Below are positions 2,171 to 32,200 of a stretch of DNA of 64,000 bases, piece after piece. Position 1 is the first letter of the stretch. Each line of letters starts with the position of its first letter. The position numbers and the translations under genes are program-made. The stretch covers positions 1,237,891 through 1,301,890 of the forward strand of contig NC_092657.1 in the NCBI RefSeq assembly GCF_032118995.1, given 5' to 3'. The notes beneath the pieces were generated by a model, which made no database searches, had not been told where the DNA came from, and worked only from the letters and a program-made list of their open reading frames with translations. The DNA comes from Asterias amurensis. Lineage: Eukaryota; Echinodermata; Asteroidea; Forcipulatida; Asteriidae.

Positions 2171-3106
2171 TCAACCTATTTTCGCCAGATATTCAGCCAA
2201 ATCTGAGAAATTCGTGGGTAAGGCATAATCAAATGCAATAAAATCATCATGGTAAATTTGACAAATACTTCTAATAAGTTCTGGTGGGACTTTGGAATAA
2301 TTTTCGATCAGCAATGACGTATTTGAACTTCCGCTGTACGGCTTTGGATACCTGTACTCAACACGACCTTTAACCCCAAGTTTGTCAGTCAGATAATCCA
2401 CATCCGGGAGAAGTGTTTCAAGTTTACCTATGACGTCATAACGCACGTGACAAGGTTTGTATTTCCGGAAGACCCGTACCCAGTGATTGTTGAAACTTTG
2501 ACCTTTGGTACCGTACAGGTGTGTCAGGAACTCTGTGAAGGTCACGTCAGGTTTTGTAAGGTTTGCCGGGCTTTGCTTACGAATTATTTTGATGATCTTG
2601 ACAGCGGCGTTGACGTAATAACTCGTGGGGAGTTTGACGAATTTATCCCGGTACGCTGAGAGAAGCCGAACCAGAGGATGCCGTACAAATAAAACCTTGG
2701 TGTACTCTTTTAAATTCTGTTGGATTTCTACAGTTGGTCGTGCTCTGATAAGCTTCAGTGGTGGCCATGCTTTTCTGAAGTTTTCACTGCTGATCTTGTG
2801 AAGATCCTGCATGAAACGTCGCCAATTCGAAGAGCCAACTTTGTTAATTGTAGTTACTATGATCTTGTAGTCATCATTCACGTACGACATACTTAGGAGG
2901 TATTTGATGGTCTGGTTTGCTATGGTGTTTTGGGAACCAAAGTCGAGGGCTTCAACGTGATATGTTTGACGACACATTCTGTCCATGTGCTTCTTGCGAT
3001 GCTGCTGAATCTTATTTGTTGTCTCCAACGAGAATGTTGGTTGTTGGGTTTTGGCGGTTGTAGTGACTGCCGTGTCCGATACATTGTGGACATTTGAAGC
3101 TTGTAT
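2171..3106 (-). CDS. Sulfotransferase copy 1, exon 3 (catalytic domain)
   Basis: One exon carries the whole catalytic domain to a TGA/TAA-type stop at 2171. The acceptor is AAAG at 3107-3110, weaker than CAG. The frame is open upstream of the first internal ATG and continuous with exon 2. Both PAPS motifs lie here. The last ~270 nt are almost identical to the paralog. Confidence 0.88.
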   Translation of the reverse strand: MQASNVHNVSDTAVTTTAKTQQPTFSLETTNKIQQHRKKHMDRMCRQTYHVEALDFGSQNTIANQTIKYLLSMSYVNDDYKIIVTTINKVGSSNWRRFMQDLHKISSENFRKAWPPLKLIRARPTVEIQQNLKEYTKVLFVRHPLVRLLSAYRDKFVKLPTSYYVNAAVKIIKIIRKQSPANLTKPDVTFTEFLTHLYGTKGQSFNNHWVRVFRKYKPCHVRYDVIGKLETLLPDVDYLTDKLGVKGRVEYRYPKPYSGSSNTSLLIENYSKVPPELIRSICQIYHDDFIAFDYALPTNFSDLAEYLAKIG

Positions 3107-4591
3107 CTTTAATGTAATGAAAGCAAAACAAAAGTTTCTATTAGGTTTTTGAACGAGTGGTTAAACTCGAAGAAATGAAGTTTGAACCCAGCCTGGTATC
3201 GTCCTGGGCCGGACATTTAAACACCATTTTGAGAAAACAAAATCACCAACAGAAAAATTTAAAGCATACCTTTGTGGTGTTGTCAACTTCTTTTCCATTG
3301 ATTTCATGTGAGTTGGGCAAGACTCGTTGGTCACTTTCTCCCACATGATGAAAAACTGCCGCTTGGTTTAAAGAAAAAAACATGAAATGTTCGTTAGATT
3401 TGAAAGTTGTTGTCAAGTTATCTTTTTAAACTTGAGATGAGACGCTGCCACTTTTCTTCTATTCTCTTTTCAGCATGTAAATTCAACACAAGAAGTTTCT
3501 GCCAACTTCCAAAATGGAAATTCAAATAGTTATTAACAAAGTGACACATCCTTATTTCCTAGATGAAAACATTGTTAGAGAAACAGGCTGCACCATGTAG
3601 GGAAGTGCACCTTTAGGTAGACCATTATGGAAGTACGCTGTTAGGGAAATTCTCCATTAGGGAAGTGCAGGGGTTAGGGAAGTGCACGGGTAAGTAAGTG
3701 CATTATTAGGGAAGTACACTGTTAAGGAAGTGCACCGTCAGTGAAGTGAACCGAAGACAAGTGCTCCATCGGGAAGTGCACCATTGGGGAAGTGTCCCAT
3801 TCGGGAAGTGGACTGTTAGGGAAGTGCACCATTAGGGAGTGCATTGTAAGGGAAGTGCACTGTTTGGGAAGCGCGATATAAGGGAAGTGCACCATCAGGA
3901 AGTGCATCATTAGGGAAGTGGACTGTCAGGGAAGTGCACCATTAGGGAGTGCATTGTAAGGGAAGTGCACTGTTTGGGAAACGCGATATAATTATAAGGG
4001 AAGTGCACCATCAGGAAAGTGCACTGTTAGGGAAGTGTCCCATTAGGGAAGTGTCCCATTAGGGAAGTGCACTGTTAGGGAAGTGCACATAGGGAAGTGT
4101 CCCATTAGGGAAGTGCACTGTTAGGGAAGTGCACAATTAGGGAGTGCATTGTAAGGGAAGTGCACTGTTAGGGAAGCGCGATATAAGGGAAGTGCACCAT
4201 TAGGGAAGTGCACTGTTAGGGAAGTGCACCGTTAGGGAAGTGCAAAGTTCAGAAAGTATTCAAAACGTGAAGTATACTGTATTAAGTGTACCGTCGGTAC
4301 ACTTAATACAGTGTACTTCACATTTTGAGAAGTATAGTTAGGGAAGCGCCCCGTTAGAGAAGTGCGCCGTTAGGAAACTTCTCCAAGTGGGACATGTACG
4401 TCTTATAGCGATACAAGCAGCATTTCGTTGGAAATATGACAGTACATGAACTTACATCTTTGTTGATGACGTGATGACGTATTGATGTAAGAGAGGGCAA
4501 TATAAGACGCGAAGAATGCACCGAGCAGGATGAAAAACCAAACAGCTAATCTCAACCCCTTAAAATTTCGCCGGAGAAACCGAAAAGCCAT
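2171..4591 (-). CDS. Carbohydrate sulfotransferase, copy 1 (three coding exons)
   Basis: Gene-level entry. Exons 4591-4456, 3355-3270 and 3106-2171 join in phase to 385 residues. The product should be a Golgi type II membrane enzyme moving sulfate from PAPS to a glycan. Exon 1 gives a short basic N-terminus and one membrane anchor (about residues 15-38). The PAPS 5'-phosphosulfate loop is KVGSSNWRR (about 163) and the 3'-phosphate motif is VRHPLVRLLSAYRDKF (about 215), both diagnostic of the CHST8-14/HNK-1 sulfotransferase family (Sulfotransfer_2). N-glycosylation sequons NLT, NTS and NFS are visible. Length is normal for the family. The start is the first ATG before the anchor. A divergent paralog with the same exon plan lies at 15.4-17.4 kb. 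The acceptor glycan cannot be read from sequence. Confidence 0.9.
3270..3355 (-). CDS. Sulfotransferase copy 1, exon 2 (stem)
   Basis: An 86-nt exon between a CAG acceptor (3356-3358) and a GTATGC donor. It encodes a short polar stem starting FFHHVGESDQR. Phase 1 in, phase 0 out, as in the paralog. The intron just upstream is also alignable to the paralog, which supports the exon edges. Confidence 0.8.
3597..4380. repeat. 16-bp minisatellite in sulfotransferase intron 1
   Basis: Dozens of units of the form TTAGGGAAGTGCACYR, with variants ending CATTAGGG or GTCCCATT. Lies wholly inside intron 1 of sulfotransferase copy 1; absent from the paralog. A short foldback interrupts the array near 4294. 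Confidence 0.92.
4269..4319. repeat. 25-bp-arm foldback
   Basis: Two 25-base arms around a single T at 4294, with one mismatch between arms. The left arm begins GAAGTATACTG and the right ends GTACTTC. Sits in the minisatellite. Confidence 0.85.
4456..4591 (-). CDS. Sulfotransferase copy 1, exon 1 (start and membrane anchor)
   Basis: ATG at 4591 followed by a basic stretch and a hydrophobic segment (LAVWFFILLGAFFASYIAL). The exon ends before GTAAGT at 4455 in phase 1. The paralog has the same anchor position, the same final HQQR and the same donor. The anchor is much more diverged between copies than the catalytic domain. Confidence 0.85.
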
Positions 4592-7853: not shown

Positions 7854-9675
7854 GTAAGAAGTACTCGTTACCATGGAGGATACGAATTCATCCGTGTTGC
7901 TAACTCACCTGTTTCTTAAGATGAGGAATGTCCTCCCCATGAAACGCACGAATGTCCAGGGATAAGTTGTATTCATCAACCAGAGTCCTTCGAGTATGGC
8001 TGCTATCTAGAGTCGAAACGTCACGTCAAACTCGATAATATGGCCCCATTTAACTCGGCCTCTACGTGGGCACCAGACGGTCGTTACATTTCGATAATCG
8101 TAGACACACCTTTTTAATGCAACGTCACAGCCTTTTTTGCCAACAAAGGTTTACAAATTCCAAAGGCTCATAATAAGACCTTGTTATTGCAACGTCACAG
8201 TTTTTGTCAAAGGTTTGGCATTTGTATGATAGCTATTAAATCAAAGCAAAATCGGACACAACCGTGTGTAACAATGTTTAAAAATGGAAAAACGGTGCTG
8301 ACCATTGATCTCCATTATACTGAGTATAATGGAGATCAATGGTGCTGACTTTGTTGGAAACAAAGCAACCATGGGATGTATTGTGATTTAATTAAAAGTT
8401 TGAAGAAATTTTGATTTTTGTTCCACATAATCTGTTAACACCATTGACTTGCGTAATCCACACTTTCTCTTCGGTTTCCCTGTTAGCTCAACTGCGCTAA
8501 AGTAAAAAATAATATAACAAAAATGCAATATTTTGGTGACATCACAAAAAGTACGTGTTCGGTTTTTGTGAATAGCGGGGTAGATATTAAACAAAATCGA
8601 ATGAATGAAATACGTAAACATGGACATACAAAACATTAAATATAGCTTTATAATAAATATTTTATTCGAACTTCCGGTTTGGACAGGAAGTACAGTCACT
8701 ACCAGGTCACAGACATAACAAGGGAACCTTCATTGATCAAACTCTCACAGACAATGTGACTTTATAAATATGAACATAAAAAAATGTTATGTCTGGATAC
8801 AAAATAAACTATGGCGTCATGATAACCTATGACGTCATTTGTATTCAAAAAAGGCTATAGTTAAAGTTCCTTATTTCACAAAATGCCTGGATGTGCGTTA
8901 TTGACCCCTTGTTTTTGTTTTGTTTTTTGACCAGCGGTGGAAGTTGCTGTATCCTGACTGGACTAGAAACGATCCGGTCTCGGTTTAAACATTTCCAGGT
9001 AGAATATGAAATAATCTATCCATACATACTAATTGGGGACTGTTGCCGACGTTCATAATGGGAAAATTTGCCGTGTTTTTGTGACTTGTTTTCTCCGTTT
9101 TGGAAGCCATTTTTCACGTACAAATTTCTCTTTTTAAAAATTGAGTTGCACCGATTGTTTTTATAACATAACGACAGATATGCTCTTCGTTTCAATTTAC
9201 TGGTACATTATTTTGGTTGAGACTTTTCAGAAAAGGCTGAAAATGACCGAATTCCAGAAGCCCTTTAAGACTTATTAGTATTCAAACCGAGGTCACGCAT
9301 GAAAACACGCCGCATATCCCGGCAGATAAATAACAATGGGGATTAGTGTACTGCAGGTAGAGTGAAACCCTCTGTGTTCAACACCAGCAGCCCAAGTCAT
9401 CGTCTGCGTTGCAGACCTACCTGGACATTCCCGCTTTTCGTGTGGTGGATTTTAATTGTGTAATGGTCTTGGAAAAAACAGGTGAGTTTTCTTGTTGTTT
9501 GATCGTTTGTTTGTTTGTGTGTTTGCTTGTTTGTTTTGATGATCTTCTTATCTGATAGAACTCGGCAATCTCCCTCAGGGGCGTGTTAACACCGACCTTA
9601 AAATGTTCATCCATTGACACGACGCGCCTAGAGCTTCGACTTGATAGCAGTGAGCAGAAAGCATTAACGCTCTGG
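7854..9675. other. Intergenic, mostly unassigned
   Basis: Contains the short foldback at 8302 but no supported gene. A 34-codon open stretch on the minus strand near 7915-8030 with a GTGAGT donor was considered and not accepted. Confidence 0.45.
8302..8342. repeat. Perfect 20-bp-arm foldback
   Basis: Arms CCATTGATCTCCATTATACT and its exact reverse complement are separated by one base at 8322. Confidence 0.9.
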
Positions 9676-15505: not shown

Positions 15506-17386
15506 GTAAGTTCATGTAATCTTCTTTTTCGAGTCCACCATCTAGGCAAATGTTAGGCCAGTATTTTGCGCATCGCACAGCCCTCTCATTTGCTGCCATC
15601 GGGCCCAATTTCATAGTACTGCTAAGCACACAAATTTGCTTAGTATGAAATGTCTTCCTTGATGAAATGTCTTCCTTGATAAAATCAGGTTTACCATCTT
15701 AATTTCCATTTGTTGCATATTTCTTGTTACTGGTATTCAGCTGTTGTTTGCTTATTCTGAAAATCACGTGGAAATTTTGTTGGGAATCCTGTTTTTATCA
15801 AAGGAAGAAATTTCATGCTAAGCAAATTCCAAAGATTTTTAAAATTTGACGAAACCGCTGCTCGTGTTGAGTTCAAAAGGCTGATAACTTTGGGAAGATG
15901 GAATGGTCGTGGTATTGCCTTGTGTCAATTTCAAAATTACTTGACAACAACTGTCAAACCTAAACAAACATTTCATGTTGTTTTTTTTCTTTCAAGGGAC
16001 AGATTATTATCATATGGGAGAACGTGACCAAAAACGATCGGTGGCAAATTCACCTGAAATCAAAGGAAACAAAGTCAATGACAACATAAAGGTATGCTTT
16101 GTATTATTATTTTCAGTCATAGACATTTCCTTACATATAGACTCCCCATAATTATTTTTAGCTGTGTTCAAACTAAACGTATTCCTTCGAGTTTCATCCC
16201 ATACATACAACATTATATTATTAGTAAAGCGCCTTTACATCAAGATCTAAGCGCTAAAAACAGCATCAGACAGCATATTACATCTGATAAACATGAGTTT
16301 TGAGAGATCTTTTGATATACACTTTCTGATGCGTATTATGTGAGGTTGTTCCCGATTCAGCAATAATAAATATAGCCTTCATCATGTCATAAAAGAAACA
16401 ATTGTTTTTCCTTTTCATTACAGCACAATAATAGACCAACAACTTTACAGATACAAGCTTCAAATGTCCACAATGTATCAGACACGGCAGTAACTACAAC
16501 CGCCAAAACCCAACAACCAACATTCTCGTTTGAGACAAAGGAGATTCAACTGCATCGCAAGAAACACATGGACAGAATGTGTCATAGCAAATACCACATT
16601 GAAACCCTCGACTTTGGTTCCCAAAAACCTATAGAAGTCCAGGCCTTTAAATACCTCCTAGATCTGTCGTACGTGAATGATGACTACAAGATCATAGTAA
16701 CTACAATCCACAAAGTTGGCTCTTCGAATTGGCGACGTTTCATGCAGGATCTTCACAAGATTAGCAGTGACAAATTCAGAAAGGCATGGCCACCACTGAA
16801 GTTTTTAAGCAAACGACCAACTGTAGAAATCCAACAGAACTTAAAAGAGTACACCAAAGTTTTATTTGTACGGCATCCTCTGGTTCGGCTCCTCTCAGCG
16901 TACCGGGATAAATTCGTCAAACTCCCCACGAGTCATTACGTCGGCGCCGCTGTCAAGATCATCAAAATAATTCGTAAGCAAAGCCCGGCAAACCTTAAAA
17001 AACCTGACATGACCTTCACAGAGTTCCTGACATACCTGGACGGTGCTAAAAATGGTCAACGTTTCGACTCTCACTGGGCACTGACCTTCGAGAAATACAA
17101 ACCTTGTCACGTGCGTTATGACGTCATAGGTAAACTTGAAACACTTCTCCCGGATGTGGATTATCTGACTGACAAACTTGGGGTTAAAGGTCGTGTTGAG
17201 TACAGGTATCCAAAGCCGTACAGCGGAAGTTCAAATACGTCATTGCTGATCGAAAATTATTCCAAAGTCCCACCAGAACTTGTTAGAAGTATTTGTCAAA
17301 TTTACCATGATGATTTTATTGCGTTTGATTATGCCTTACCCAAGAATTTCTCAGATTTGGCTGAATATCTAACGAAAATAGGCTGA
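15376..17386 (+). CDS. Carbohydrate sulfotransferase, copy 2 (three coding exons)
   Basis: Gene-level entry. Exons 15376-15505, 16003-16091 and 16424-17386 join in phase to 393 residues. Same family and predicted role as the copy at 2.2-4.6 kb: Golgi type II enzyme, PAPS-dependent sulfation of a glycan. Motifs KVGSSNWRR and VRHPLVRLLSAYRDKF are intact, so it should be active. Two junctions allow in-frame alternatives: exon 2 may start at 15997 (AAG then CAG, six bases apart, two residues), and exon 3 may start at 16451 (nine residues shorter), the position used by the paralog. The 5' flank just before the ATG is conserved with copy 1, so the duplicated block included some leader. The two genes point away from each other across about 10.8 kb. 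Confidence 0.92.
15602..15831. mobile_element. Foldback MITE family D, truncated
   Basis: Begins GGGCCCAATTTCATAGTACT and ends inside the second arm at CATGCTAAGCAAATT. Lies in intron 1 of sulfotransferase copy 2. Confidence 0.75.
16003..16091 (+). CDS. Sulfotransferase copy 2, exon 2
   Basis: Stem exon encoding YYYHMGERDQ onward, ending before GTATGC. The acceptor CAG at 16000-16002 aligns with that of copy 1; an AAG six bases upstream would add two residues without changing frame. Confidence 0.75.
16424..17386 (+). CDS. Sulfotransferase copy 2, exon 3 (catalytic domain)
   Basis: Strong pyrimidine tract and CAG at 16421-16423, then an open frame to TGA at 17384. Contains both PAPS-binding motifs and the conserved C-terminal SSNTSLLIENYSKVP region. 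A second CAG at 16448-16450 is in phase. Confidence 0.9.
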   Translation, partial: HNNRPTTLQIQASNVHNVSDTAVTTTAKTQQPTFSFETKEIQLHRKKHMDRMCHSKYHIETLDFGSQKPIEVQAFKYLLDLSYVNDDYKIIVTTIHKVGSSNWRRFMQDLHKISSDKFRKAWPPLKFLSKRPTVEIQQNLKEYTKVLFVRHPLVRLLSAYRDKFVKLPTSHYVGAAVKIIKIIRKQSPANLKKPDMTFTEFLTYLDGAKNGQRFDSHWALTFEKYKPCHVRYDVIGKLETLLPDVDYLTDKLGVKGRVEYRYPKPYSGSSNTSLLIENYSKVPPELVRSICQIYHDDFIAFDYALPKNFSDLAEYLTKIG

Positions 17387-20211: not shown

Positions 20212-23200
20212 GTAAGTGTATATGTACCTCTGTATTTATAGACTGTTTTGTTGGTTTAACTTATGTTTTTAAGCAGTGAATTTTACCACTGTGGAAAAAT
20301 AATTTTGAGCCCCTTCTCCGCCGAGCTGCCGAGACGAAACGGGTCTCCGAGAGAGGGGGAACCATCGACTACAGACTATCCTGGTGTCATGTGTTTTCAG
20401 TAGGATAACAGGAAAATTGTTCACAATCAAAAACTAAATATTTTTTTTTCAAATCATCTATCCAATTTTTTAACAACACTTTCACTTCATGGTGTGTTGG
20501 AATTTTTAAAGTTTTGGTTTTACGTTGCGAGAGACAGTCCGCCATTAACAGTGCTTATGCATGCACGACATTGGAGCAACGTCATATGTTTTCACACCTT
20601 TCATTGGTTGGTATTTTATTGAATATTCAGAAGCTAGTATGGCGTGCAAAATAAATCAAAAATATTATTCAATTAGTACTTGACAAATTTAATTACATTT
20701 GTGTCCTAAGGCATTATGGCTACTTTATTAGAATCCAGAGATATCATAAGGCATGAAAGTAAAACACCCCACCCCCCTTGATGCACTCACACTTCATAAC
20801 AATCCATTTCCCCCCATTTCAGACCAGTAATGTTTGGTTCAGGAGATAAGAAACCAATCTATGATATTTTCTCTTTAATGTAGACTTAATATTTATTACG
20901 CTTATCAGAATTTATAACAGTTATGCAGTAAATAAATAAAAAAAATTGTTGTCATTTTCACTTAAAATATTTTAATATTTTCCCCACATTTGCACACCAT
21001 AGAATCCCAAATAGTAACCACCTCACGTGATCCATCTAGTGACTAAAGCAGAATGAAACTCAATCTAGCAGATAGTAATTTTGTTTTGAACTTTCGAGGT
21101 TGGATGATGTTTCTTGACTCATTTGAATTTTGGCATAATAATGCACTAGTGATTTGTACCGAAAATCAATCATTTTATAAATGTTTGAGCATAACCAACG
21201 ACAGGAAACTTTATTCTCAGCATGATTAAGCCTGATGAAAATACAGACCGTGAGTAAACTGCATAGCTTCTGTCACCGGTGCAGCTTGCACAATTTCGCG
21301 GTAAACGGGAGTCAAAGTCTGCCTCGATTGACGTCACGAACAGCGCCCTCTCGGGTAGGGGTCTATCTTGAATTTAACTGAATTTTTAAAACCTTAGTTA
21401 ACTGTTTATATTCATATTCCACTGATCAAAACACATATATTAGTGACAAAAGCTTTATTTTGAAAAAAATACCACTTCCAGGTCACTTTAACTCAAACTT
21501 TGGCTCTGTACTCCTTTTTGAAATAACTTGACATGAGATTGTGGTCCTTCCTGACATCCTTAGTCATAAAAGAACCCCCGAAGTAAGTACGCCTGGAACT
21601 ACCTGTTTGTGGAGACAATAGCGGAACGAGCCTCACCTGTGTGGCTATGGAGGAACTCTGACGAATCCTAGGATTTGTCAGAGAGTTGCCCACAAAGTTT
21701 GGACTAACTAAGTAGAATTACGACCACAGATGTCAAAATATTTTTTTTCACTCCTAATGTCACTGTCTGAATCAACATGTACCTAGTCAGTTTGTCACTC
21801 GTTTTATTATTTAAATTTGTCTATTTTAGTTTCTTTGTCCACCATTCCACCAAATCAACACAGTGGAATGATCCTCGTAAGCAGTATTACGAATCGCAAC
21901 AGAGAGCAGGGTTTGCACCAGCACCCCAGCACGCCCCAAGAATGGCCCAGCACTCTCCCAGAATGCCTCAGCACGCTCCCAGAATGCCTCAGCATTCCCC
22001 ACGGATGCCTCAGGCCATGGTAAGATACAAGCATGATATACCAACCCCCTGGACTAAATCAAGGACTGAAATAATAGTTGGGTAGTTAGGTTGGCGCAGT
22101 GGTGTCTTGCCTCGCCTTCCACCTCTGGGGACCCCAGTTTGAGTCCTACCGGGGGGGGGGGGGCACTATGTGTATTGGGTTTATCAGTCCCTACTTGACT
22201 TCGAGGGTTTTCCCTGGAACAATTCTCTGGGGTTTTCCTCCAACTTCTAAAACTGAAATTTCTTCACTGTCTCCTCACCTTGTTTAGATGCTGAAAAGGC
22301 ATTGACAAGTATTATCATAGATGTAGATGTAGATATAGAATCATTGTTGGCACATCTCATACCTGACTACAGACTCACATGCCGCTATATGTACATGTAT
22401 GCTGCTTTTTGCTCCTTGGTAAACATGATAAATTTCTTCTGGAGCATTTCAAGGGCACCAAAGAAATGACCAGGGGGCATAGAGGCAAGTATTAGGCCTG
22501 CACCCATTGCACAACGCGAGCACACTCCCACAACGCGAGCACACTCCCACATGCCTAGATGCTGTCTGCCATTTTGGGAGGCAAACTTGTGCTCAAACAT
22601 GAACAAAAGATTGGACTCCCAAAATGATGGAAATGGTGGCTTAACATCCCATTCAAAGGATGAAGGACTGTTGCTATTAAGGGTGTTGCTAAGGACTTAC
22701 TCATCTGCAACACATGATGACAAGGAAATCAAGCCATAGCTGTAGCCCAAGTCCAACACGGCCCAAGTTACTTAAAGGGAAGGTACACGATTGGTAATTA
22801 CTCAAAACAAATATTAACTCAAACACTGACTTGGTAACAAGCATTAGAGAGCTGTTGATAGTATAAAACATTGTGGGAAATGGCTCCTTCTCAAGTAGCA
22901 TAGATTTTGAAATAGAGGTAATTTCTTACTAAAATGATAAAAGTCTTTTAGCTAGAAGTCTTTTATTCCTATCTGAAAGCACACAAATTTGTCCAACAAC
23001 GGTGTTTTTTCTTTCATCATTTTCTCCCAACTTCGATGACCAATTGAGCTCAAATTTTCTCAGGTTTGTTATTTTATGCATTGTTGAGATACACCAAGTG
23101 AGAACACTGGTCTTTGACAATTACTAATAGTGTACCTTCCCTTTAATATCCTATGACAATTCAATCCTTTGGTGCACAGACTTTTGTTCAATGTTCAATC

Positions 23201-26200
23201 TTGGTTTACTCAAAAGTTTACAATAGCACCCCCTGTTGAATATCACATCAAATGTAAGCTTAACAACCGAATGAGAGCGGTATTGTATTGGTGTTGTAGT
23301 TTTTCAGTTACAACTGTTTATAAAAGTCCAATTTGACATGCTTTGGTGTTTGCTAGTGACCGCTAAGCTTGGGCAATATCACGATATTATCGAATATCGC
23401 GATATTAATTTGGAAACGATTTTGATATCGGATGGATTTGGTTTTAATCGAAATATCAATATATCGCGATATATTGCGATATCGATTAAATATCGCGATG
23501 TATTTGCTAGCTGAGACATCTTGCACCCCATAGGTTTGGAGTAAAACCAGAAGAATAGGTCATTAGAATACCTCTCTTATGCTATGACTGTCTCTTTTAC
23601 AACTTTCACTTGGAGTTTGAAGACTGATGATGTCAAATTAATTAATCGCGATTATATCGACTATCCCGTTATATATTGTCGGCGATATATCATGAATAAA
23701 ATAAATCGATATCGCCCAAGCTTAGTGACCGCCTTGTGCACCAAAGCAGTAAGCTTTACAGCATTTAACCCTCAAACCATCCCAAACTGATTAATAATTT
23801 GTGTTTGTTCGTTTTGTCAGAGACAAGCCATCCCAATGCAGCCGATTGTCAAACCAAAGTGCAAAACTTGTAATAGAATTGAGGTAAGAACTAGGTGCAG
23901 GTGAAGATAGACCAAGCATTTGTAAAACCACATAAGTTTAAAGGCACCGGACCCTCAAAATAATTGTTAGCATAAAAACTTACTTGGTAATGAGTAATGG
24001 GGAGCTGTTGATAGTATAAAACATTGTGAGAATGGGCTCCCGCTGAAGTAACGTAGTTTTCGAGAAAGAAGTAATTTTCCACTAAAATATTTGAATTTGA
24101 TTTTGAGATCTCAAAATTAGGTCTGGAAATCAAGCATCTGATAGCACACTTTTTGTGACAAGGGTGTTTTTTTCTTCCACTATTATTTCGCAACTTCGAC
24201 AACCAGTTGAGTTCAAAATTTCACAGTTTTTTTAAATTTTTACCAGAAGACTGGTCTTTGACAATTAGCAAAGGTGTCCGTTGTCTTTAATTTTAAATCT
24301 TGTACCACCCCTCAAGCCAGTTGGGCAATACGATTTTTTAGATCAATTTTTGCCCATGACACCAATCCCTACTTAGTGAAGATATATAATTTAATATAAT
24401 TTGTATAATATAATTTACCTGGAGAATTGTCATCTCCATTAGTCGACAAGGCTTTTAGAAATAAATTAAAAACACAGAGCAATGTTTTTTGAGAGAGTTG
24501 CATGAATTCGTTGTACATGCTAAAATAATTATTGTCTCACTGAGATGAAAGTTATTCTTTGTGAAATTGTTTTACTGATTTCTCAAAAACTAAAGCACCT
24601 GAGTTAGTAATATTTTAAGTGAAGCTTTAAACCGTGTAAGTTTAATGTGAATCTGTGGACGTTTTGTGTTTTGTGTCGTACAAAAAGTACCCAAACTCTT
24701 TTCTAAAACTGCGCTTAGGTGCCAAGCAACAACCAGGAATGTCAAGGATGTCAATTAAAGGCTCGTCAGCGGGAGGCAGAGTTAGTGAGAGCGAGAGAAG
24801 CTGAAGAAGCTCAGAGGAAGAAACACGAGAACCAACAGCGGATCCAGAAGGAACAAGAGAGGAGAAGAGTTCAGTCAGCTGCTAGGGCGAGGACACCGGT
24901 GCAGATAAACGTTCAGGAGGTAAGAATGTTGGAATGTAGGCTGTGGAGATTGTTGGAAAGTTTTCTGAGGAGGGACAGAGTTGTTGGAATGTCATTGGGA
25001 AGTGGTGAGAGTGTTGGAAAGTTTTCTGAGAACAATTAAGGGAGGAGAAGAGTTTAGTCAGCTGCCAGGGGTAGGACACTGATGCAGATAAACAGTCAAG
25101 AGGTAAGAATGTTGGAAAGGAGAGGGAGCATTGTTGGAGTGTCCTCAGGGCGAGGCACAATTAATTAGAGTTAGGAAGTGTTCAGCCAGCTGCTATGGCT
25201 AGAACACTGATGCAGAGACACGTTCAAGAATGTTGGAATGTCCTCTTGGAAGCAGTGAGAATGTTGGACATTTTTCTGAGGTGAGGTGGGATAGAGTTGT
25301 TGGAATAGAGAGCTGCTAGGGCTAGGACCTCGATGCAGATAAACGTTCAAGAGGAAAGAATGTTGAAATGTTGGCTAAGGAGATGGTTGGAATGTTTTCT
25401 GAGGAGAGGGAGAATTGTTGGAATGTCATTGGGAAGTGGTGAGAGCGTTGGCGAGTTTTCTGGTAACAAGGGAGAACAAGAGTTCGGGCTAGGACACCGA
25501 TGCAGATAAAGCTCAAGAGGTAAGAATGTTGGAATGTCTGCTGTGGAGAGGTGGAATTGTTGGAATGTCCTTTAGAACTTGAGAGTGTGTTGGAACGAGG
25601 TAGAGAGTGCAACACTTCTGCCCGCATTCCAACACTCTCACCTGTTTTGTTTCAACATTCGTTTTAAAATGTATTTTATCTGTTGTTTGTTGCAGACTGC
25701 CTTTGGGGAAGAGACAGTAGAGCAACGAGAGTACACAGCAGCAGAAAAGAGAGAAAGTATGTAAACCTAAACCATAGAGTTATATATAAGAACTAGAGGG
25801 CGCACGAGTGATGCTTCGTGCACAAACGCCACGGGACCGCAAGATGACAAACGCGTCATTATGCACGCGCGTTGAATATGAAATACACGTTTGAGGTTTT
25901 TTTTTTATTGAACGCTCACGCGATGCTGTTTGTTCAATTTAGAAAATGGCCGTCTGCTCGCATACCGGGGCGCGTATATAGGCCAGTGCGCGCTCTAGTT
26001 CTTATATATAACTCTATGATCTAAACTTAACTTTACTAAGTTTATTAACTCTTGAACTGTAAGGGTCGTGGGTTCACATCCTACCCGAGTAATATGCGTG
26101 TAATATTGTTTTCACAGGACTCAGGAAAGTACTGAGTATACAGTGCTAACACACATCGCTGTATGGGTAAAAATAAAAAATAATATTCTTTATCCCCGAT

Positions 26201-29200
26201 GCAAATTTAACATCAAGTATAATAATGGGTTTAATAATCAGCACAGATTCTTTGTCATACCCATGTCAAGTAATGGTTCTCTTCATCTGATTAGTGATCA
26301 ACAACTTGAATGACGCCTTCCCTGGGATCGAGAAGACGGTTGTTGAGATGGTTCTTGAGACGAGCACATGGGATGCAAATAAAGCCACCTCTGTCCTCTC
26401 CACCATGTCGCCGAGGAAACCAGTGGCCCCTAAGCCAAAGGCAACGGTAAGAGAGGAGTAAAGGCACTGTAAGATCGAAAAACACAAGTGTTCACAGATT
26501 CAGACATAACTAGAAAGGGTTCCTTTAAACATTTCTGCCTAAAGTGATAAACTTGTTACCGCAAACTCTTCTATATCTTATCTCCACCATGCAAAGTTTC
26601 AAATCCTACTGATAAACTTGTTGTTTGAAAAACAGAAAACACAGAAGATCTCGTTTCAATATTTTCTCGTGACCTCGATGACCAATTGAGCTAAAACTTT
26701 CACAGGTTTGTTTGTTCATGCATAAAATGGTGGATCACACAAAACGTAAACACTGTGTGCGACTATTTTGTCACCTCACCTTGTGTCGTCGAAAAGGCAC
26801 ATTTGCAGGAAGTATGAACCATCCTTTAGCTGGTGGCAAACAATCCAATCAGGTATTTTTCCTGATTTTCCTGAAGTAAAATTGTGAAAGTTTTGACTCA
26901 ATTGGTCATCGAAGTTACAAGGGAACAATGAAAGAAAAGAGACCCTTGTTGCTCAACTTTCTGCGCTTTCAGATGCCTAACGAAGGCTTCAGGCCCGACG
27001 GTTTTTTAATATTTGTGTGAAAAATTACCTCTTTTGAAAAACTACGTTACTTCAGAGAGAGGCATTACTAACAATGTTTTAACAACATTACTTGAGTGAG
27101 TAATTGCTTGTTTAGTAATGACCAATAGTGTTGAGTGCCTTAAAGGCAGTGGACACTATTGGTAATTGTTAAAGACTAGCCTTTACAGTTGGTGTATCTC
27201 AACATACGCATAATATAACAAACCTGTGAAAATTTGAGCTCAATCGGTCATCGAACTTGAGAGATAATAATGCAATAAAAAAACACCCTTGTCCCACGAA
27301 ATTGTGTGCGTTCAGATGGTTGATTTCGAGACCTCAAGTTCTATACCTGAGGTCTCGAAATCAAATTCGTGGAAAACTACTATGGCACTTCAGAGGGAGC
27401 CGTTTCTCATAATGTTTTATACCATCAACCTCTCTCCATTACTCGTCACCAAGAAAGCTTTTATGCTAATAAATATTTTGAGTAATTACCAATAGTGTCC
27501 ACTGCCTTTAAAGCCATTATACACTTTCGCAACAGAAAAAAAATTACAGATTTACAAATAACTTACAGGGCTTAAAGAAGGTAATTGTGAAAGACTTCTC
27601 TTGAAATATTATTCCATGAAATGCTTATTATTCCATGAAATGTTTACTCTTTGAGAAAACATTAAAACAATTATCAATTCTCGATATCGAGAATTACAAA
27701 TTATTTTAAACACAGTTCATGACACGGCGAAACGTGCGGAAATAAGGGTGTGTTTTCCCGTTGTTTTCTCCCGACTCGGATGACCGACAGAGCCTTAATT
27801 TTCATAGGTTTGTTATTTTATATATAGGTTGTGATACACGAAGAATGGGCTTTTGGACAATACTGTTAACCGAACGTGTCCAATAGCTTTAAAGTGAAGC
27901 CCTCACCTTGAGGTGGCTGTTTGTGGCCATGTGAGGTTTGAGGATCCTGATAAAAATTATAAATGATTTTGAAATCTTGTTGCATTTTCATTTCTCAGAC
28001 GTCCAGTGCTGCAGCTTCTTCGTCAATTTCTCCGACCCAACCAAGTGATGCAGTGAAGAAGAGAAGTAAGAAATACCTTATGATCTTTTAGTTGAGGAAA
28101 ATAACCAAAACATTGCAGTGGTTTTCTTGATTGTACCATGTGGGCCGCCATACTTTAAGATTGGTCGGGGGGGGGGGCCTTCTATTTCCAATCTGAATCT
28201 GAAGTATAATAGTATCCTAATGGAAACGTCACACCAACTTGTTGTAGTGAAGATGGCAGCATTATGCGCACAACACCTTGTAAACCATAAGCCTTTTTGA
28301 GGTATGGCGGACGTGATACGCGCGCGTCACACGTCGCGACTGATGCCACGCTCACCATGTTGGTGGTCATTAGGTTTACGTGTAAACGCCGCGTCGCCTA
28401 AAATGCGTACTTCACTGAATAACATACGTTCTATTTCTATGGTCAAAACCACAAATTTACCACAACTTTACAGTGTTGAAGCATTGTGTCCGCCATACCT
28501 CAAAACGGCTTATTGTTGATGCTATGTAAAAGGAGTAGGTCTCATAACTCAAACATAGTCCCACATAGCTTTGCAGGAAAATAATGTATGTTAAAGCGCA
28601 GTGAGCGTCACTGAGTGACAGGTATACGTGCTCTATGTAAGAAGCCACTATAAAAGTCAATGAAGAAATTTCAGTTTTCATAGCAGATGAAATTGGGCCC
28701 AGCTTGGAATCATTCAGGTAAAGCCCAGTCAAAGTTCCTGCGAATGTTACAGTCGACTGTTATTATAAAGACAGGCATGCAACTCTTTCGCTCTTTTTAT
28801 TTTAATTTTTTTAATTTTTTTTATAAAACCTTATATATGCCTGGCAACAACAATGCACAACTACAATAATGTAAAATAAGCCTAGTACATGCTAACAATG
28901 CACCTTAAAGCAAAATAAACCTCAACATTTTCTAGGGTACCATTGTGGGTCTTGTGTCCTGTGGCGTTTTGGCTGCCTCGCTCCGCACTTAGGTTGTGCC
29001 TTTGAAGATTTTCCTCTTTTTTTTTTCAATAGCTGTAAAGAGCTCTGTCGCAAAAAGGTTCTGCTTATAAAGAGTACATTTTGAAGTTGTGAATCTCATT
29101 TCTGCTTTGTGTTTTTTTGTTTTGCTGTCCTATTGTTATAGCGTTCCTATTATAGAGTAGCTTGACCAGTCCTAGCGACCTTGTTATAACGAAAGTTGAC

Positions 29201-32200
29201 TGTAGAGTGATTAGGTTTCACTTTTTTGAGAGATGCTTGGCTTCATATCCTGAATCAATAAATGAAAAAGGAAGTACATTTCCTTCTGTTTTGTTTTAAG
29301 GCAGTGGACACTATTGGTAATTACTCAAAATAGTATTTAGCATAAAAACTATCTTGGTGACGAGTAATGGGGAGCTGTTGATAATATACAGCATTGTGAG
29401 AAACGGCTCCCTCTGAAGTAACATAGTTTTTGAGAATGAAGTAATTGTTCACTAAAGTATTTTAATTGAATTCGAGACCTCAGCTGAGGTCTCGAATTCA
29501 AGCATTTGAAAGCACACAAATTTGTGCAACAAGGGTGTTTCATCCATAATTCTCTCGCAACTTCGACAATCAATAGAGTTTAAATTGTCACAGGTGTGTT
29601 ATTTTATGCATATGTTGAAATACACCAAGTGAGAAGACTTGTCTTTGACAATTACCAAATGTGGGCAGTGCCTTTAAGCTGTCTTTCTCTTTCTTTGTAT
29701 TGACAGTGCTAACTCAGTTGCAGTCAATGCATACATCAGCGTCCAGTACATTGGTTGAAATGGCACTGAGTACAGCCAAGTACGATGTGGCCAAAGCAAG
29801 CCAGCTACTCAGGATGACCCTTGACCCACCAGGGGGTCAGAAGACGGCTCCGGCTAAGGTCGTCAAACCAGGTAGGTTTAAAATAATAATGTTAAAAAAA
29901 TAAATAATGTGGTTGTAGGCCTTGAACTTCTGCAGGCCTTAAATAATAAAAATTAAAATAGTAACAACTAGTTCTTCTATAAACCTGCTGTATATTTTTA
30001 TATGTAACTATTTTTGTATGTAGACTATTTTCTGTATGTATTGTAATTTTTACTGTAATTTGGCCGTTGGCCACGAATGTAAAAAGAAATAAACTATCTA
30101 TCAATCTATATAGCGCATTTCACAATAATCGTGTCAAAGCGGTTTACATTAGTGCCCTGGTCATTGGGCAAATAACATTCCTGTAATGTTTCTCGGCTCC
30201 CAGGGGAGTAACCAGCCCTGAGCTACCGTGGTGCTAATGGGTTTTTTCAAACACAATATCAACCTCTACTCTCGCAGGTACACTTTTAAGCATCTGGCTC
30301 AAGGACACAAGTGCTGGGATTCGAACCCACACTCTGATGACTTAAACACCAGGGCCCAATTTCATAGAGCTGCTTAAGCACAAAGTTTTGCTTAAGCAAA
30401 AAAATCCTTGCAGCTCTATGAAATTGGCCCCTGAGCTTGAACTTGATGCTCTTAACCACACAGCCATGACATCTTGAATGAATCTAAACTCTGGAAACTC
30501 TTTAATGAAGCTTTGTCGTAATGATGTAGAATAAAGTTCCATGAAGTAACTGTAAGGATGATGTAGAATAAAGTTCCATGAAGTAACTGTAAGGATGATG
30601 TAGAATAAAGTTCCATGAAGTAACTGTAAGGATGATGTAGAATAAAGTTCCAGGAAGTAACTGTAAGGATGATGTAGAAAAAAGTTCCATGAAGTAACTG
30701 TAAGGATGATGTAGAATAAAGTTCCATGAAGTAACTGTAAGGATGATGTAGAATAAAGTTCCATGAAGTAACTGTAAGGGTGATGTAGAATAAAGTTCCA
30801 TGAAGTAACTGTAAGGATGATGTAGAATAAAGTTCCATGAAGTAACTGTAAGGATGATGTAGAATAAAGTTCCATGAAGTAACTGTAAGGATGATGTAGA
30901 ATAAAGTTCCATGAAGTAACTGTAAGGATGATGTAGAATAAAGTTCCATGAAGTAACTGTAAGGATGATGTAGAATAAAGTTCCATGAAGTAACTGTAAG
31001 GATGATGTAGAATAAAGTTCCATGAAGTAACTGTAAGGATGATGTAGAATAAAGTTCCATGAAGTAACTGTAAGGGTAATGTTTTTTTTTGTTTTCAGCC
31101 ACAACCAGCCATGGAACTACTAGTGTAGTCACAACTACACGTACCGTCGTCCAACAACCGAAGAGGAGGTGAGACTGTCTTTAAACTTATTTCAAAAACA
31201 TGGCAGTGGGTTTAGCTCCAGGGCTACATTTCATAGAGCTTTTAAGCACACAAATTTGCTTAGCATGAAATTGTTTCCTTGATAAAGACAGGATTACCAA
31301 CAAAATTACTATTTGTTGCATATTTCTTGTTACTGGTATTCAGCTGTTGTTTGTTTATCCTGAAAATTACATTTGGTTGGTAATTCTGTCATTTACATGT
31401 TAACAATTTGGACACCCAGTTTTTATCTTTGTATAGTTGTAATTTTTTTTCTGTGATTCTTTGTAGAAACAATTTCACCTTTTGTTTGTTGTGCGTTGTG
31501 CCTCACTAGACAGTGGTGCAAAAAAAGTAACAAATTTGCTATCCCCGATTCAATAACTACCTCAAATAATATTTACTCACCTAATAGAATAACAAGTTCA
31601 CTTGTTTCTGCTTTGGAAGAGTTCCTCAAACCAAATTAAAAAACTTAAAATACAAAGACAAATGGCACAGGAGTTCTATTAACAGTCACTTGTCTGTGTT
31701 TTTTTGCTCACCCTTAACCCTGCATCAATTCTCCTCATCCCAATCAACTCCTCTGAACACCCCTTCACGATGACCCTCTCTGTACCCCGACCTCATCTTT
31801 CTCCCCTGACCACACCCTCTTCCATCTTCTACCTTCCTATTCTCTACCCCCCGCCCTTTGCTGTTCCCTTCTCCCTCTCCCCGCCCTTTGCTCTTCGCTA
31901 CACCCCCCTCTCCCCTACCTTTGCTATTCTTCCACGACCTTGCGGTAACTACTCACAAAACTCAGTGATCCTGAACTCTCCTCTTCCCTGACCACACCGG
32001 TTGTGTCAACCACACCCCGCTCACCAACCACACCTGTTTCATCAACCAGTACTGCTCGAGCATCCACAGTCACCATAGCAACCAGGGCTCCTTCACCATC
32101 ACGGCAACCTCGTCAGACTCGTCAGACTAAAGGCGGAGCCACTCAGAGAACCAAGGGTAGGCCCAGATTTTCCCTCTGAAGCCTCCAGGGCCTAATTGCA

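Follow-up and report, generated by a model that had tools for sequence, protein, structure and literature searches.

Copies of an exon end and its splice donor fill an intron of a sea star gene: a probable 'mirage' minisatellite

Minisatellites that span exon–intron boundaries, termed mirages, are known from amphioxus, where they occur in Adh, in the globin genes BflGb6 and BflGb9, and in the troponin C and PGBD5 genes. Their published units measure 10–160 bp, and they are reported not to disturb regular splicing. Related arrangements exist in humans: the minisatellite of IFI6 (6-16) gives rise to several splice donors (Turri et al. 1995), and variable boundary repeats in genes of segmental duplications can turn exon into intron (PMC2812944). 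Tandem duplication has also been linked to intron gain, in the Rogers model (cited in PMC3087553) and in a case from potato RdRp (PMC4974935). Here we describe an array in the sea star Asterias amurensis, within a stretch of 64,000 nt of contig NC_092657.1 (positions 1,237,891–1,301,890 of the forward strand; 'the window', to which coordinates refer unless a locus is named). In the intron that follows exon 4 of a gene we call WW-CUE, the end of that exon and its donor are repeated several times. The array is very probably a mirage that arose by repeated local duplication, for the most part neutral, and that is tolerated because splicing continues to use the site next to the exon.

In the intron beyond exon 4, the last bases of that exon, the donor and the neighbouring stretch of intron are present in four further copies, all before 25560 (Table 1). 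A query of 55 exonic and 12 intronic bases matched the rest of the intron at 87% (over 67 nt), 89% (55 nt), 81% (54 nt) and 89% (47 nt), with bit scores of 79.2, 69.7, 55.5 and 50.7. The maximum over 100 swap-shuffles of the intron, made with a script of our own, was 22.2, and the copies exceed it 2.3- to 3.6-fold. The first-pass annotation of this DNA, which saw at least four downstream repeats of the exon end and donor, is borne out by these scores. It was also right that at least two copies keep a perfect donor and that others are mutated: GTAAGA is intact at 25103 and 25520, and lost in copies 3 and 4. Exact GAGGTAAGAATG occurs at 24917, 25100 and 25517, and nowhere else on either strand of the window; the plus strand of the window contains seven instances of TTGGAATG, each within 24929–25560.

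Three structural features mark the array as a mirage. The tandem unit spans the exon–intron boundary: it joins 35–75 nt of exonic sequence to intron, with a donor between them that two copies have lost. Many units, though not all, keep their AG/GT signals, with GAG/GTAAGA intact in three of the five. And the authentic exon copy sits at the edge of the cluster, copy 1 being contiguous with the open exon 4 and read-through meeting stops from 25037 onward. The units begin 183, 128, 123 and 167 nt apart (family D6), and they are nested: the block from copy 1 to copy 2 (24877–25117) aligns with that from copy 4 to copy 5 (25311–25534) at 81% over 241 columns. Because these two-unit blocks align, it seems likely from the sequence that at least one duplication carried two units together.

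Table 1. Exons 4 and 5 of the WW-CUE gene, and repeats and donor-like sites in the intron between them
Feature	Window coordinates	Strand	Remarks
Exon 4, source of the repeats	24719..24919	+	67 codons, phase 0; open frame; acceptor CTTAG 5', donor GTAAGA 3'
Copy 1: authentic exon end, donor 24920, intron start	24846..24939	+	Reference copy, family D1
Copy 2: intact GAG/GTAAGA donor at 25103 (+183)	25029..25122	+	83% over 94 nt to exon copy
Copy 3: donor deleted by 7-nt gap	25157..25250	+	72% over 152 columns; less alike to exon copy
Copy 4: donor mutated to GAGGAAAGA (GT to GA)	25311..25373	+	Begins later in exon; starts 241-column alignment
Copy 5: shortened exon part, intact GAG/GTAAGA donor at 25520 (+600)	25486..25549	+	89% over 65 nt to 24885-24949
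Donor-like GAG/GTGAGG (25281) and GAG/GTGGGA (25286), between copies 3 and 4	25281..25286	+	Matrix scores 10.81, 8.08
Shorter sub-repeats around GTTGGAATG, between copies	24947..25595	+	24 and 31 nt in tandem-repeat table
Inverted copy of donor-side repeat near intron 3' end	25620..25646	+	Inverted pairs I3-I5
Exon 5	25696..25756	+	Acceptor TTGCAG at 25690-25695

The array appears to be confined to this place. DNA searches of the genome (491.5 Mb in 23 contigs) matched it at this locus only, with a search tool that skips very common words, and an origin from a dispersed repeat or transposon is accordingly unsupported. The exact 18-mer GAGGTAAGAATGTTGGAA, which lies over the donor, is found at three genomic places, all in the array; with up to two mismatches it is found at 341, and among the matches listed most are one other word, GGGGTAATAATGTTGGAA.

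The gene itself consists of exons at 21830–22019, 23821–23883, 24719–24919, 25696–25756 and 26295–26446, which join into a single open frame. With a candidate exon near 29700 added by eye, its protein matches the Pfam CUE profile above cut-off (E 8.3e-5) and, under the cut-off, half of a WW domain (E 0.0048). No paralogue, which might have given an outgroup without the array, was found in the genome at E ≤ 0.01; the five matches obtained are all the gene's own exons at the locus. Coding exon 2 carries a tandem repeat of its own, of 21 nt (21924–22013), which is translated into PQHAPRM/PQHSPRM repeats. At 24919 the end of exon 4 reads GAG/GTAAGAATG, with the donor GAG/GTAAGA at 24920. The frame from exon 4 continues open beyond that donor up to a stop at 25037. 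When seven donors were joined in turn to exons 5 and 6, only 24920 kept the frame open (138 codons), in agreement with the earlier suggestion that frame shifts and stops make the choice of the first donor matter. Donor 25005 shifts the frame and leads to a stop after 121 codons, and the other five alternatives stop after 106, within the extension. Because all six alternatives result in premature stops, the normal protein is predicted to need donor 24920, and this is presumably the donor used in vivo. The open frame from 24920 is the one observation here that speaks for regular splicing being undisturbed, and to that extent it suggests so.

Differences among the copies bear on how they have fared since they arose. 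In a 60-column core of the five, aligned by hand, copy 1 has three private changes and no gap; two of the three are at third codon positions and one is an ATG/GTG difference. Copies 2, 3, 4 and 5 have five, four, four and zero private changes, respectively, and there are gaps in copies 3 and 5. Small though these numbers are, they would fit constraint on copy 1. The nine-base donor is intact in two of the four intronic copies. Expected survival under neutral decay is 0.63–0.47 per copy if each copy has changed by 5–8%—our own estimate, taken as half of the pairwise distances—and the donors appear to have survived about as often as neutral decay predicts. Between copies, divergence is 8–19% in the core and up to 28% over longer alignments; the core values suggest that the units have not been homogenized recently.

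A plausible history can be written from these features. The end of exon 4, with its donor and adjoining intron, would have undergone local tandem duplication; together with at least one larger event that copied two units at once, this would have brought the number to five, spaced 123–183 nt apart. The first unit, contiguous with the exon, would have stayed under coding constraint and gone on serving as exon end and donor; the four others would have become intron, and then decayed. Both this order of events and the near-neutrality of the array are what we infer from the copies as they stand today.

Several observations weigh against so passive a history. Strong extra donors persist at 25103, 25281 and 25520. 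By a matrix built from approximate human frequencies, the real donor scores 10.23, those at 25103 and 25520 score equal or better, and that at 25281 outscores it (10.81). In local folds, the three GTAAGA donors have unpaired fractions of 0.74, 0.73 and 0.89, against 0.40 (standard deviation 0.17) for 150 random GT sites that were not composition-matched; site 25281 has 0.34. Donors 25103 and 25520 are open in both folds made (0.62, 0.89), and 24920, scored only in the fold that contains the exons, is open there (0.74). This predicted openness of the GTAAGA donors hardly speaks for silence. Copy 5 has no private base change despite its intronic position, and the donor part is less divergent than the exonic part in nine of ten copy pairs, which are not independent of one another. 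The lower divergence of the donor part, together with predicted openness, leaves room for function. Finally, the spacings of the units, at 123–183 nt, extend past the 10–160 bp given for mirage units.

The first of the other explanations is that the extra donors are regulated alternative 5' splice sites: longer forms of exon 4, with their stops, would be degraded, and the amount of protein would depend on which donor is chosen. It would suit this explanation that three extra donors matching or surpassing the real one lie within 600 nt, while the entire plus strand of the window has ten of that strength, and that the GTAAGA donors are predicted to be accessible. Both the extension to 25103 and that to 25520 have a length divisible by three, yet run into a stop. 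Half of the intronic copies have lost the donor altogether, a survival that fits neutral decay; similar arrays occur in unrelated genes; and the amphioxus repeats of this kind are described as not interfering with regular splicing. We regard regulation as improbable. RNA structure as a selector among the donors was considered and dropped: the inverted copy at 25620–25646 is able to pair with donor-side repeats, but which partner is predicted depends on how much sequence is folded, being 25005 for the intron alone and 25583–25593 and 25121–25125 once exons are included.

The arrays in unrelated genes come from a sample of 60 loci retrieved with the WD40 and Helicase_C profiles, some of them in the same gene, and four genes of the TCP1 family. 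Three genes other than WW-CUE were found to have boundary arrays. In the WD40 gene (locus L037) the exon ends FDHTVSVWDVHSGR, and a 137-nt unit is present 2.9 times, with three CAG/GTAAGA. The helicase gene (L072) is repeated on both sides. On the donor side its exon ends KALQKLPTILR, and a 121-nt unit, present twice, provides two CGG/GTAAGT donors, at 2694 and 2815 of the locus. On the acceptor side, upstream of the matched exon, an 89-nt unit present 2.9 times carries TTCTTATTTCAG together with roughly 25 nt of the exon's beginning; the real acceptor thus comes after three decoys (1236–1527; G000:C10), and the decoy exon starts differ from the real exon start at positions that change amino acids. 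In the TCP1-family gene, which we take to be CCT8 (L083, reverse strand, 8330–8600), the exon ends ATNAAVTVLRVDQ, and intact CAG/GTAAAA donors at 8367, 8488 and 8593 alternate with broken CAG/ATAAAA at 8424 and 8529. In all four donor arrays, that of the window included, the frame of the exon runs into a stop without reaching the next donor copy that is intact. The first-pass annotation had offered, as one reading of the window array, a record of failed exon extension. That reading finds no support of its own: the tandem duplication spans the splice junction, and similar arrays lie at further donors and an acceptor elsewhere in this genome, as in the published amphioxus cases.

How often this happens was estimated from 86 exons with 52 donors and 63 acceptors, 115 junctions in all, which are predicted rather than annotated, some of them wrong, and drawn from loci that in part share a gene. 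Two donors and one acceptor were flagged as duplicated; one of the donors (L037:1850) proved on reading to be a dispersed repeat, leaving two of 115. An earlier, narrower test found copies at none of 30 donors, the other 30 of the 60 loci having given no usable donor. The donor arrays of L037 and L072 lie outside the 115 and come from a different scan, which covered both strands; of its 64 strong donor-like sites three, in two loci, had local copies. Among ten boundaries of the WW-CUE gene, the exon 4 donor alone was positive; as the case given at the outset it is excluded from the count. Local repeats cover 15.8% of the bases of the window and 5.6% of the 189,894 bases in the 60 loci, and 160 of 14,556 bases in profile-matched exons; duplications in introns and across boundaries seem to be tolerated, and those within exons rarer. 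It is slightly less likely than not that boundary-spanning minisatellites are a general feature of this genome, affecting about one splice junction per hundred, donors and acceptors alike, with the exon-proximal copy nearly always winning.

A second explanation, under which duplication favours splice boundaries, perhaps by way of pausing or R-loops at donors, might be suspected from a small sample that contains both donor and acceptor arrays. A rate of two in 115 junctions is not above the 5.6% repeat share of bases at the loci, however, with the caution that the thresholds differ and that few junctions were sampled. No special targeting of junctions is called for, and we judge such targeting to be quite unlikely. 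A third explanation draws on human IFI6, whose splice-donor minisatellite has some downstream units that are used and make the protein longer; that the array here works likewise is very doubtful. Repeated units are present, three of five with an intact donor, and isoforms of IFI6 do use two downstream repeat units as donors (PMC4526556); in the sea star array, however, the frame stays open with none of the six alternative donors tried. Assembly artefact or chance similarity is barely credible: repeats can be mis-assembled, and one published amphioxus case apparently is, in the genome draft, yet the copies here differ by 8–19% in the core and up to 28% beyond it, have gaps of their own and so are not one sequence laid down twice, and their scores exceed those of all 100 shuffles. 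The number of units could still be wrong.

Other features of the window and genome were noted in passing. A minisatellite of 16-nt units at 3589–4244 includes a strong donor-like site, at 3690, the surroundings of which have 11 local copies; no exon is assigned there. At 30521–31082 a 37-nt unit is present in 15 copies with 98% matches and is open in three reverse frames. The intron after exon 5 contains 38-nt inverted repeats (92%) 180 nt apart (25768–26023), which together have the form of a small inverted-repeat transposon. Two long frames that closely resemble each other, 2171–3160 (minus strand) and 16376–17386 (plus strand), are oppositely oriented and look by eye like sulfotransferases. 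AAA encodes asparagine, and ATA isoleucine, in the mitochondrial code of echinoderms and flatworms; in amphioxus AAA encodes lysine. In mitochondrial COX1 on contig 23, AAA stands at asparagines of PDB chain 5j4z_BN at eight of eight positions in the matched stretch, compared by eye, which speaks against an amphioxus as host. Two further COX1 copies on contig 5 (G000:C5:658874–660214 and 675294–676634; 451 bits, versus 454.9 for contig 23) may represent a recent transfer or an assembly join.

The repeated boundary of the WW-CUE gene is, then, a real feature of a known kind, in a phylum for which we found no report of boundary-spanning minisatellites (among the open-licence papers listed for starfish, sea stars or echinoderms, judged by titles and the starts of abstracts). 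Its mechanism is most likely the neutral growth of such a minisatellite, rendered harmless by exon-proximal splice-site choice. Duplicated splice sites of equal strength are a classic laboratory construct for the study of spliceosome choice. Natural equivalents are present in WW-CUE, WD40, helicase and TCP1-family genes of one genome, and counts of RNA junctions over these arrays would tell if the choice turns on where a site lies with respect to the exon and not on the sequence of the donor. Recurrence across the genome, and this natural test of splice-site choice, hold more interest than the single case. A structure known from lancelets seems to extend to another deuterostome phylum. If boundary-spanning minisatellites are indeed general in the genome, they would provide a large natural collection of splice sites duplicated in cis together with the exon sequence beside them; mirages would be no lancelet peculiarity, and in deuterostomes whose genomes are rich in tandem repeats they would be a standing source of new introns and splice variants.

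Compared with systems already described, the array shows both likenesses and differences. With the Rogers model and the potato RdRp case it shares the tandem duplication of sequence that carries splice signals. No sign of a new intron is seen here (with no relative for comparison), and the acceptor side of exon 5 is without local copies. With the internal tandem repeats of human segmental duplications it shares variable repeats at an exon–intron boundary; novel introns are proposed there, whereas the sea star intron seems to have been present already and to have lengthened. With IFI6 it shares a single minisatellite that supplies several splice donors, the difference being that downstream units of IFI6 are used and give isoforms (PMC4526556), whereas extensions in the sea star stop or shift the frame. 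From the amphioxus mirages it departs in its nested larger duplication, its sub-repeats and its host; in the three structural features of its anatomy, it is the same.
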